NCBI RefSeq assembly: GCF_014279815.1
Contig: NZ_CP047941.1
Span: 1,550,001-1,614,000, forward strand
Source of the DNA: Synechococcus sp. NOUM97013
GTDB taxonomy: Bacteria; Cyanobacteriota; Cyanobacteriia; PCC-6307; Cyanobiaceae
Length of the DNA stretch: 64,000 nt
Reading direction: 5' to 3'
The notes under the pieces were generated by a model. The model was not told where the DNA came from, made no database searches, and was given only the letters and a program-made list of their open reading frames with translations. Positions 2,709 to 5,201 of the stretch are shown here, one piece after another (position 1 is the first letter of the stretch; the number at the start of each line of letters is the position of its first letter). Both the position numbers and the translations under genes were made by a program.

Positions 2709-2842
2709 CGTTTTGTTGACAACCCGGTTGACAAAAGAGGGCTGTGATCAATAACAGCGTGGCAAATATCGGCATCCAGCCGGGTGATCGCCAACTCAAC
2801 GTCCAGGCGATCCCGCACCATCGCCCTGACCCTGGGTTCCAT
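2705..2842 (-). CDS. Small hypothetical protein, 45 aa
   Basis: A short reading frame starting at ATG 2842 (MEPRVRAMVRDRLDVELAIT...) and ending KR-stop, with the stop overlapping the AhpC-like start by four bases (ATGA). That coupling is the main reason to think it is real. It is predicted to be mostly helical and charged, with one Cys (DADICHAVIDHS). A longer form from ATG 2926 is possible, but it would run into the divergent gene's promoter region. I do not recognise a family. Confidence 0.42.
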   Translation of the reverse strand: MEPRVRAMVRDRLDVELAITRLDADICHAVIDHSPLLSTGLSTKR

Positions 2843-2932
2843 ACCGTTCCAATGACCCAGTGAGTCTCGACAACGTTGTTGAAATCTCACTTTCCTGCTC
2901 CTAAAAACAGACTGACACGTACCCAACCTCCG

Positions 2933-3187
2933 ATGAGAGCTGTTGTTACTTCACTCGTCATTGCCTCTTCAGCCATCGCTGCACCAGCCTTCGCCCAGAA
3001 GGAGATCCCCAAAGCTCCGGGGCATGATCAGTGCCCTCTGGGTTACGTCAACACTCTGGGAACGACCTGCGTCTCTCCCATTTACTACGAGGTGGCGCCT
3101 ACAAATGGCGAGGCGTGCTTAGAAGGATGGATGAACATTGGCGCTGGGTATTGCAAGAAGAAAAAAGGCCCTCTGGGAATTCTCTGA
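2933..3187 (+). CDS. Small secreted Cys-containing protein
   Basis: An 84-residue product with a clear Sec signal peptide at its start (MRAVVTSLVIASSAIAAPAF followed by AQ, cleavage probably after AFA). The mature part has four Cys: DQCPLGYVNTLGTTC, EACLEGW and GAGYCKKKKGPLG. These are likely to form two disulfides in the periplasm. ATG 2933 is preferred over an ATG at 2876 because only the former puts the signal peptide at the N-terminus. Tiny exported proteins of this kind are common and mostly uncharacterised in marine Synechococcus. A weak hairpin with a T-run (CCTC/GAGG, then GGCTTTTTT, 3239-3260) may end the transcript. Confidence 0.72.
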   Translation: MRAVVTSLVIASSAIAAPAFAQKEIPKAPGHDQCPLGYVNTLGTTCVSPIYYEVAPTNGEACLEGWMNIGAGYCKKKKGPLGIL

Positions 3188-3297
3188 CCACACCCAGACC
3201 GATCGGCACAAAAAGCGCTAACACAGGCACCTTCCCGCCTCAGAATCCGAGGGCTTTTTTGATCCGGCACCGGTAACTTGAGACCGACCGTGCAGGG

Positions 3298-3495
3298 TTA
3301 ATAAAAAATGGAAATGCCGCCGAATTGAAGGCAAGCCAATAAATTGGGAGCTAGTTGGAGTTCAGTAATCCCGGACTCCAATATTAAAGAGCCAAGACCG
3401 AAAGCTTCGGCATCGGCTGTGCCTTTGAGCTTATCCGGAAGATCCACATCAAACCTGACGGCTTCGAGGAATGCCTTGGGTTGCTCTTCTGACAT
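3298..3495 (-). CDS. Nif11-like leader peptide (degenerate RiPP precursor)
   Basis: A 65-residue product from ATG 3495. The first 32 residues match the Nif11 leader family: MSEEQPKAFLEAVRFDVDL then PDKLKGTADAEAF, against the family's 'MSEEQLKAFLEkVkaD..LqeKLKaAaDaeavv'. The second half (ILESGITELQLAPNLL) only loosely follows the usual 'AkeaGfsitaeeL' section. A Gly-Gly pair sits at residues 59-60, leaving only ISIFY after it, without the Cys/Ser/Thr core expected of a prochlorosin substrate. No lanthipeptide synthetase or ABC peptidase gene lies in this window. No clear Shine-Dalgarno site is seen. It is therefore an orphan, possibly decayed, precursor gene. Confidence 0.6.
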   Translation of the reverse strand: MSEEQPKAFLEAVRFDVDLPDKLKGTADAEAFGLGSLILESGITELQLAPNLLACLQFGGISIFY

Positions 3496-3556
3496 TGCTA
3501 GACATGGAGCTGCAGCGTGGCCGCAGCCAAGGCCGGCAGCAATGCCTGCAAACAAC

Positions 3557-3579
3557 AAAAAAGCCCGCTCAATGCGGGC
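3557..3579 (-). terminator. Rho-independent terminator of the 3651-3881 gene
   Basis: On the minus strand, GCCCGC-ATTGA-GCGGGC is followed directly by TTTTTT. The stem is perfect and GC-rich. It lies about 72 bases after the stop of the small secreted protein gene, and separates it from the Nif11-like gene. Confidence 0.8.
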
Positions 3580-3650
3580 ATTGACGCCAGATGTTGGAGA
3601 CGAATATGCAGACTTAAGGTTCCAACATTCAAACCTCTGAAACGAAAAGC

Positions 3651-3881
3651 TCAATCCCAATTTACGGTGCAGGTATAAGCCGTCTCTGATCCAACTTCCT
3701 GCGAGCGGCAAGACATGTCAGTCGCTGTCTTGCCTTTGGGGACTTTGGAGAGGGCGCGATTCTTAGCAACCTCCTCATTCATTGCTTGGACCGTATAAGA
3801 GCCAGACCCGGCAATAGCAGCTCCACTGATTGCGAGCAACAAAAGCGGAGTAAAAAACAAAGCGGTGCTGAGTTTCAGCAT
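3651..3881 (-). CDS. Small secreted protein, 76 aa
   Basis: ATG at 3881. The N-terminus is a Sec signal peptide (MLKLSTALFFTPLLLLAISG then AAIAG, cleavage after AIA). The mature domain is about 52 residues: YTVQAMNEEVAKNRALSKVP, then KTATDMSCRSQEVG and ETAYTCTVNWD, with two Cys that could pair. It ends with its own strong terminator at 3557-3579. It is likely periplasmic; no family is recognised. It neighbours several other tiny genes, all of unknown role. Confidence 0.72.
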   Translation of the reverse strand: MLKLSTALFFTPLLLLAISGAAIAGSGSYTVQAMNEEVAKNRALSKVPKGKTATDMSCRSQEVGSETAYTCTVNWD

Positions 3882-3913
3882 GATCCCAAAGACAGTAGAC
3901 AGATCCTTCCTAG

Positions 3914-4012
3914 CTAAGGATTGGATTCAATGCCGTCAAAAATGACAAATTCAGCATCCGCTTGCAGTGCCGCGGGCACTCCATCACGCAGAGCCTTGAA
4001 ATCCTCCAACAT
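3914..4012 (-). CDS. Possible microprotein, 32 aa
   Basis: An ATG-TAG frame with MLEDFKALRDGVPAAL and then EFVIFDGIESNP. Its composition looks protein-like (acidic and amphipathic). An in-frame TGA lies just upstream of the ATG, so the start is fixed if the gene is real. There is no good ribosome site and no family. It lies between two better supported small minus-strand genes. Confidence 0.28.
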   Translation of the reverse strand: MLEDFKALRDGVPAALQADAEFVIFDGIESNP

Positions 4013-4074
4013 TGCTATTCAGACAGATGAAGCTCATCTAAAAAGGGCACCCAGACGAGGCAGGGCACTCGACC

Positions 4075-4251
4075 TCATGCCGCAAGCGTTGAATCAGAGC
4101 CATCGTCAATTTTCAGATGCGTAACCAGACAACTGGTGACACAGTTTTGATCATTGAGGTCACACTCAGTGATGCAGACGAAGTAATCCTCAAGTGCATC
4201 CCATCTTTCTGTCATCGAAGACTGTGAACGCTCACCACCGATCTCATACAT
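4075..4251 (-). CDS. Small Cys-rich hypothetical protein, 58 aa
   Basis: A frame missed at a 60-residue cut-off. It begins MYEIGGERSQSSMTERWDAL and continues EDYFVCITECDLNDQNC, then VTSCLVTHLKIDDGS. Four Cys (CITEC, NCVTSC) are spaced C-x3-C and C-x3-C, the twin CX3C layout seen in helical-hairpin disulfide or metal-binding proteins. There is no signal peptide. An alternative start is the Met at residue 13 (MTERWDAL), and GGTGAG upstream of that could serve as a ribosome site. No family is named; the Cys pattern and clean composition argue that it is coding. Confidence 0.55.
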   Translation of the reverse strand: MYEIGGERSQSSMTERWDALEDYFVCITECDLNDQNCVTSCLVTHLKIDDGSDSTLAA

Positions 4252-4309
4252 AGCTTTGCTCCAAGTGAAAGCTATTTAGTAGAGGTGCCAGCCTAGAGTC
4301 AATTTCAAC

Positions 4310-4408
4310 ATGTCAGAGAATAAACTACCTAGGCACAAACTCACACGAGGATATATTCAACAGCTATTGGCCGAATGGAAGACATGGAAGGTGCCCTGGG
4401 CCCTCTGA
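4310..4408 (+). CDS. Possible microprotein, 32 aa
   Basis: ATG 4310 to TGA 4408: MSENKLPRHKLTRGYIQQLL then AEWKTWKVPWAL. It is basic, with three Trp near the end and a short amphipathic helix. There is no clear ribosome site (AAUUUCAAC upstream). It could be a genuine Trp-containing micropeptide or chance. Confidence 0.28.
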   Translation: MSENKLPRHKLTRGYIQQLLAEWKTWKVPWAL

Positions 4409-4871
4409 AACCTTTATCAACCACAGTCACAACTGCGCAACCAAATAGAAAGACAATATAAAGAGACTCGTCTCAAGCCTTAAAGAGTCGACTCAATCGA
4501 TAGGGTTTCGCCGTGCAGTCAAGACATCCAGGTCACTCTGCGCAAAACAACAGTCTGGCAATCCAATGAGTAGAAGAGGTCTTCATCCCCTCTTGATGGG
4601 TCTTGAGTCTTCTAAGTCTGAGCCATCCTCAGCGAACACTGAGCAACCGAAAAAAGAAGAAGCCAAGACCTCTGGCCTCGAATCAGCCCAGCGGAAGCGA
4701 TTCCTTCGCTCTGAATCAGATCAGGGACCCGAACGGGACTTCAAACAATCCAAGGCTGTGTGAATTCCGCAATGAAAGCAGTTAGTCGCTGCACGGCAGG
4801 GCAATTCCACGTGCTGCCTTGACGCAGGTGCAACCCGAGACCATTGTCACCATCAGAACTGATCGAGCGAG
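4409..4871. other. 463 bases without a convincing gene
   Basis: The best frame here (4566-4763, + strand, 65 codons, rich in Ser, Lys and Glu) has low-complexity composition, no ribosome site and no family, so I do not call it. AGAGACTCGTCTCAAGCC and nearby GAGTCGACTC contain short self-complementary stretches. I see nothing else. Confidence 0.4.
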
Positions 4872-5201
4872 ATGCCTCGGAGAATGTTGGTGCCCTCCAC
4901 TGCGATGCGCCTGGCAATAGTGGCGTCACTCGCAGGGCTCATTGCTCCTGTCGCTCAGGCCCAAGAGCCGGCCACTAAAACCTTTGAACGACGCAATGTG
5001 CCGCTGTCGTGGATCTTCAATGAGTGGCGCCGGAATGGCAACGATGCCAACACCTATCTCTGCGTCTGCGACCAAGATCGTTGCGACACGCGGCCCGGCT
5101 GGCCGTTCCGAAGTTTTGGAACCGGTGAAGCCATCCCAGTTCTGGGGGAATGGAATCTGAACCAAGCTCGGCGCGAGGGGTTTCTCTGCGCGAGACGATA
5201 A
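4872..5201 (+). CDS. Secreted hypothetical protein, about 100 aa
   Basis: The N-terminus is a signal peptide (MRLAIVASLAGLIAPVAQAQ, cleavage after AQA). The start may be ATG 4872, 4884 or 4905; the last places the hydrophobic core nearest the start. The mature part holds LSWIFNEWRRNGNDAN, YLCVCDQDRCDTRPGW and GEWNLNQARREGFLCARR, with four Cys. The domain is probably periplasmic and disulfide-bonded. No family is recognised. It resembles the other lone small exported proteins in this stretch. Confidence 0.68.
   Translation: MPRRMLVPSTAMRLAIVASLAGLIAPVAQAQEPATKTFERRNVPLSWIFNEWRRNGNDANTYLCVCDQDRCDTRPGWPFRSFGTGEAIPVLGEWNLNQARREGFLCARR

Follow-up and report, generated by a model that had tools for sequence, protein, structure and literature searches.

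The question raised by this locus is whether a small open reading frame encodes a lanthipeptide precursor, the remains of one, or a peptide kept for another use. The frame lies on the minus strand at 3495-3298 of the window (the whole 64,000-nucleotide stretch of DNA that was analysed) and, in translation, runs from ATG to TAA over 65 codons. An earlier note described it as an orphan Nif11-type leader with almost no core, with a strong match to the leader family in its first half and a second half that departs from that family.

Leader likeness and the shared 5' region

The TIGR03798 model comprises 68 positions and was applied with its curated cut-off over the full leader. The frame scores 20.5 bits (E 4.2e-4) over residues 1-31, where the cut-off is 32.3, and with PF07862 it scores 22.3 bits (E 1.7e-4) over positions 1-32 of 48, where the gathering score is 23.8. 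The likeness to the Nif11 leader is real, but it is limited to the front part of the frame and passes neither curated threshold. The strong match claimed by the earlier note holds for residues 1-31/32 and is borne out at the DNA level (E 5.3e-35, below); it does not extend to the family scores.

For the DNA comparison a profile was built from 40 precursor loci, namely the best ten of the 33 matches in the same genome and the best thirty of the 56 matches in G004, the closest relative among the 30 genomes searched with the region. This profile matches the target at 3619-3403 (nhmmer): the match begins 124 bases ahead of the ATG, ends with codon 31 and goes no further. The match includes the first 31 codons of a Nif11/prochlorosin-type leader (3403..3495, minus strand; ATG at 3495-3493), which TIGR03798 and PF07862 also detect, and a 5' module common to intact precursor genes (3496..3619, minus strand), which is found again in repeated blastn matches. 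The longer blastn matches of 3496..3619 to other copies are ~70-79% identical. This module is probably a spacer together with a promoter or 5' untranslated stretch. In its 5' region and leader start the target thus carries the common features that mark descent from ProcA/SyncA precursors. A search with the common 5' region can also bring up broken or remodelled copies to which protein models give a low score or none.

A terminator-like hairpin followed by a T run lies at 3563..3579 (minus strand), with a stem of the form CCCGC(2-6)GCGGG. A conserved RNA hairpin upstream of the frame was considered and rejected: among 38 intact genes (the 40 loci of the profile minus L016, which has an early stop, and L102, which has no ATG) the exact stem occurs within 130 bases upstream in only 7, and a 61-base stretch around the hairpin folds no better than its shuffles (z -0.84). 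The same pattern is present 200-700 bases after the ATG in 10 of the 38, and its positions upstream and downstream of precursor genes are consistent with terminators between members of tandem arrays. Since the stem is rare upstream and the folding resembles that of the shuffles, the terminator of a neighbour is a simpler explanation than a conserved RNA hairpin. The hairpin probably once terminated a neighbouring gene of a tandem array, which suggests an origin of the copy within an array of this kind.

The retained 31 codons contain no stop and no frameshift. Their median pN/pS against the 38 intact genes is 0.39; the medians for the intact genes against one another are 0.18-0.46, with four of the 38 exceeding 0.39. 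Five target residues (P6, R14, F15, V17 and P20) are absent from all the intact leaders, three of which (3/38) have five or six private residues of their own. The 5' region scores 16.9, within the intact range and above the scores of 14 of the 38 intact genes. In 27 of the 38, a CTAT motif lies 24-37 bases ahead of the ATG; the target has none there, and the prolines at positions 6 and 20 have no equivalent in the intact set (0/38 with Pro at either position). The absent CTAT and the two prolines are the only hints of lost function in the retained part, and P6 may predate the break, as it is also present in the short-leader peptide P0002 of G004. Without visible decay beyond the truncation, the retained part is compatible with a cut made recently and also with residual constraint. 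This evidence does not favour decay, so the weight for reading the frame as a relic rests on the truncation.

The end of homology at codon 31

In blastn searches over the start of the target, none of the 37 DNA matches extends more than 12 bases beyond codon 31. With the identical database (seven stretches of the five genus genomes G004, G012, G019, G025 and G028) and settings, nine intact precursors of the same genome (L011-L015 and L017-L020) gave 27-38 matches each, of which 22-36 go past that limit. Other limits of the query gave the same end point, at the furthest 3399-3407.

The frame then continues as a tail of 34 codons and a stop (3298..3402, minus strand), which shows no relation to Nif11 leaders or to anything else found. 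Aligned with the second half of the G004 copy (see below), the tail scores 26 against a shuffle mean of 24.3, and 325 of 1000 shuffles reach this score; in the same test six intact controls gave z values of 7.0-11.1. Against 40 other copies its mean z is 0.33, the two best values being 2.9 and 2.7. With the filters off, nhmmer reported nothing in the tail, and no match better than E 0.43 was found for it in its own genome (itself excepted) or in G004. When 31 genus genomes were searched with 3190-3660, none of the matches listed, apart from the target itself, covered more than four bases of the tail. At E 1e-6 the full frame is unmatched among 59 other genomes, and it has no confirmed relative in genome_contigs or viral_contigs as searched by weak tests with short exact-peptide seeds. 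A phage origin of the frame was rejected, there being no match in the phage collection. The length of the tail is unexceptional, as 28% of its dinucleotide shuffles stay open equally long.

A frameshift reading of the tail was also considered, as a local alignment to the G004 copy ran past the break, and was rejected when the shuffle test gave no support. By sequence comparison, the second half of the frame is a break in homology and not a simple frameshift, in agreement with the observation of the earlier note that it leaves the family with no frameshift to be found.

The Gly-Gly codons (3316..3321, minus strand) that had been read as the leader cleavage site are inside this tail, in which homology is not detectable, and so are not the cleavage site of the family. 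The cleavage motif of TIGR03798 is given as ELSDEELEAVAGG in Table 3 of PMC2887384; the frame has no motif of this type at the end of a leader, and its Gly-Gly sits in another context. The residues after the pair are ISIFY, with no Cys and no Ser/Thr-rich stretch, just as had been claimed, and the frame therefore lacks the core with Cys and Ser/Thr for lanthionine rings of a prochlorosin. The description as a leader with almost no core is inaccurate, since besides the core the frame also lacks half of the leader and the cleavage site. A Gly-Gly that occurs in frame by chance is no ground for annotating a sub-threshold Nif11 match as an orphan leader.

The genome and the corresponding interval in relatives

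At E up to 1, TIGR03798 has 33 matches on the chromosome that contains the window, one contig of 2.55 Mb, and 22 of them are over the cut-off; within the window the target is the only match at that limit. Internal stops occur in three of the 33, and another two are partial, spanning only profile positions 2-39 and 1-16. The genome encodes two LanM-type proteins (DUF4135 and LANC_like) of 1123 and 1065 residues, each with the CCG motif that is described as the mark of ProcM-like enzymes (PMC10783134). Their genes are ~770 kb (the first) and ~760 kb from the target, and an ABC exporter frame is directly upstream of the first. Matches to C39 peptidase were obtained in two frames, of 755 and 746 codons: one precedes the first LanM gene by ~4 kb, and the other is ~26 kb from the target, outside the window. 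The content of precursors and synthetases identifies the genome as of the prochlorosin type, and the prochlorosin content suggests a marine picocyanobacterium. According to PMC10783134, precursors of this type occur singly or in tandem and are dispersed across the genome. The target is consequently no orphan at the scale of the genome, where two LanM-type genes and two C39-peptidase frames are present. The statement that there is no synthetase or transporter nearby agrees with these distances, the nearer C39-peptidase match being the one ~26 kb away.

The second LanM-type gene belongs to a separate lanthipeptide locus (L041 412-1023 and 1606-5888; G000:C1 ~2312411-2317887). Upstream of it is an NHLP-leader precursor (TIGR03793, 65 bits, cut-off 50.9), and a putative JmjC/cupin-type hydroxylase frame overlaps its end.

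In G004 the genes on both flanks are collinear with those of the window and 82-86% identical, with 2.2 kb between them. This interval contains a Nif11 copy in the same orientation (L073 about 4482-4726), which matches TIGR03798 positions 22-51 with 21.5 bits, under the cut-off, and the DNA profile with E 8.3e-46. None of its three frames is free of stops: in one, a stop separates the leader start from the second half of the leader, and in another a two-Cys stretch comes after a Gly-Gly. It is 67% identical to the target over 94 bases, and its position suggests that the two are orthologous. The corresponding stretches of eleven other relatives (L081-L091, 6-6.5 kb each) contain no Nif11 module at E 1e-3 with the DNA profile, so that a copy is present in this interval in one of the twelve relatives examined. 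Stops in close relatives, which the earlier note had named as evidence against its reading, are thus found in kind, in the one relative that has a copy. In the simplest history, a precursor copy was inserted once in the common ancestor of the two lineages and was then lost independently in each; given the identity of just 67% over 94 bases, two separate insertions, in the lineages of the target and of G004, are a less simple possibility.

Several other features were noted in and around this interval. Beside the broken copy of G004 there are two isolated pieces resembling the 5' module (L073 3799-3903 and 4740-4805; E 2.5e-4 and 8.5e-5), which may be traces of other copies at the same spot. The region 2816-4872 of the window looks like a rearrangement spot: its flanks are collinear with G004, and its inner pieces (2771-3212; 3650-3928; 4074-4158 with 4559-4720) match three G004 places. 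A small secreted-protein-like gene at ~2933-3187, on the plus strand and convergent with the target, is contained in a stretch (2771-3274) with a 79% identical counterpart elsewhere in G004, beside Nif11 precursor genes. Parts of both ends of this stretch, 2774-2825 and 3185-3299, are found again at G000 2053109-2053756 and, in a less complete form, at G004 594.5-595.1 kb. Directly upstream of the target, at 3651-3881 on the minus strand, is another small secreted-protein-like gene, of 76 codons; the stretch that includes it (3650-3928) is 79% identical to the G004 locus L075, in whose 2.5 kb the precursor profile finds no module. A pyridoxamine-oxidase-like protein neighbours the target.

Origin of the frame and comparison with known systems

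Taken together, the frame is very probably a truncated relic (pseudogene fragment) of a dispersed prochlorosin-type (Nif11-leader, LanM-modified) precursor gene. A precursor copy comprising the leader and its 5' region, with a terminator upstream, would have arrived in the intergenic interval. Everything 3' of its codon 31, including the cleavage site and core, would have been lost or replaced by deletion or rearrangement, an event proposed to account for the observed break. Codon 31 would thereby have been joined to unrelated DNA, through which the frame would run on by chance for 34 codons to a stop. If translated, it would yield a peptide of 65 residues that contains half a leader but neither the cleavage site of the family nor a core open to modification, and no lanthipeptide is therefore expected. 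With the frame cut after 31 codons and followed by unrelated DNA, there is most likely no peptide product. As a broken copy of a large gene family it is most likely an expected, ordinary gene relic. Of the two possibilities left by the earlier note, a decayed precursor is supported, and for a leader with a different use no positive evidence was obtained.

It is unlikely that the frame encodes a functional small protein, in which half a Nif11 leader and a new tail are kept for another role, for example competing for the leader-binding site of the synthetase. Such a reading would agree with an open frame, with pN/pS of the 31 leader codons inside the intact range and with the presence of synthetases that the peptide could bind; the short-leader peptides of the genus, some with the prochlorosin 5' region, likewise suggest that leader remodelling occurs. 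Against it, the tail is known from the target genome alone in what was searched, its open length is that expected by chance (28% of shuffles), and prolines occur at residues 6 and 20 where none of the 38 intact leaders has them. The more specific proposal that the half-leader peptide (31 residues and the new tail) is kept as a decoy or regulator of a promiscuous lanthipeptide synthetase is very doubtful.

Decay by a frameshift that left the second half of the leader in place but out of frame is a distinctly improbable origin. Copies of this kind do exist, that of G004 in the same interval among them, and two of the 40 copies reached z values of 2.9 and 2.7 against the tail, but the alignment of the tail to the G004 copy is equalled by 325 of 1000 shuffles, the mean z is 0.33 compared with 7.0-11.1 for the controls, and nhmmer with its filters off is silent in the tail. 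That the frame is a genuine precursor with ISIFY as a minimal core is barely credible: the Gly-Gly pair does stand five residues before the stop, but it follows NLLACLQF, where the motif of the family is given as ELSDEELEAVAGG, in sequence without detectable leader homology, and ISIFY offers no Cys for a lanthionine ring.

As a truncated precursor gene, which it is here taken to be, the target is one more sharply bounded broken copy in the turnover of prochlorosin precursor genes, and that is little by itself. The expansion and scatter of the precursors are already known (PMC2887384, PMC10783134), and the terms truncated, pseudogen, upstream, intergenic and orphan are absent from the main text of PMC10783134.

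More interesting than the target itself are the short-leader Gly-Gly peptides of the genus. One group has short K/E-rich leaders of about the form MSEEQ.KK...EL.EDEL.G.(S/A)GG (L076 675-830, G004:C1:1889674-1889826; matches L156-L165), with 11 matches (itself included) in five of the 31 genus genomes and none in the genome of the window; eight of the nine distinct frames examined have no Cys after the Gly-Gly. In G004, three short-leader frames (L155, L160 and L164) carry upstream the TTGCTATG(A)CCAGGCTGTAGCTC 5' region known from prochlorosin precursors. P0002 matches TIGR03798 weakly and at positions 44-68 alone (E 0.046), as if the middle of a Nif11 leader had been deleted in frame. These peptides are possibly an unmodelled precursor group. 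CCRG-2 is presumably the name of a short-leader family.

Among known systems, the target resembles ProcA/SyncA (N11P, TIGR03798) in its 5' region and first 31 codons, and in its occurrence in a genome with a ProcM-like LanM and with precursors in single copies and tandem arrays; unlike them, it has no leader sequence beyond residue 31, no ELSDEEL..GG cleavage motif and no core, and scores below both cut-offs. With the broken copy of G004 it shares the flanking genes, the orientation and a Nif11 leader that cannot be read through in one frame. By contrast, G004 keeps the second half, the Gly-Gly and the core region distributed across frames, while the target keeps its frame and lacks the second half. 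The start and 5' region of P0002 are 79% identical to those of the target over ~125 bases, and both peptides begin with MSEEQP. The short-leader Gly-Gly peptides, however, lack the middle of the Nif11 leader and keep the Gly-Gly half, whereas the target lacks the Gly-Gly half and keeps the front.
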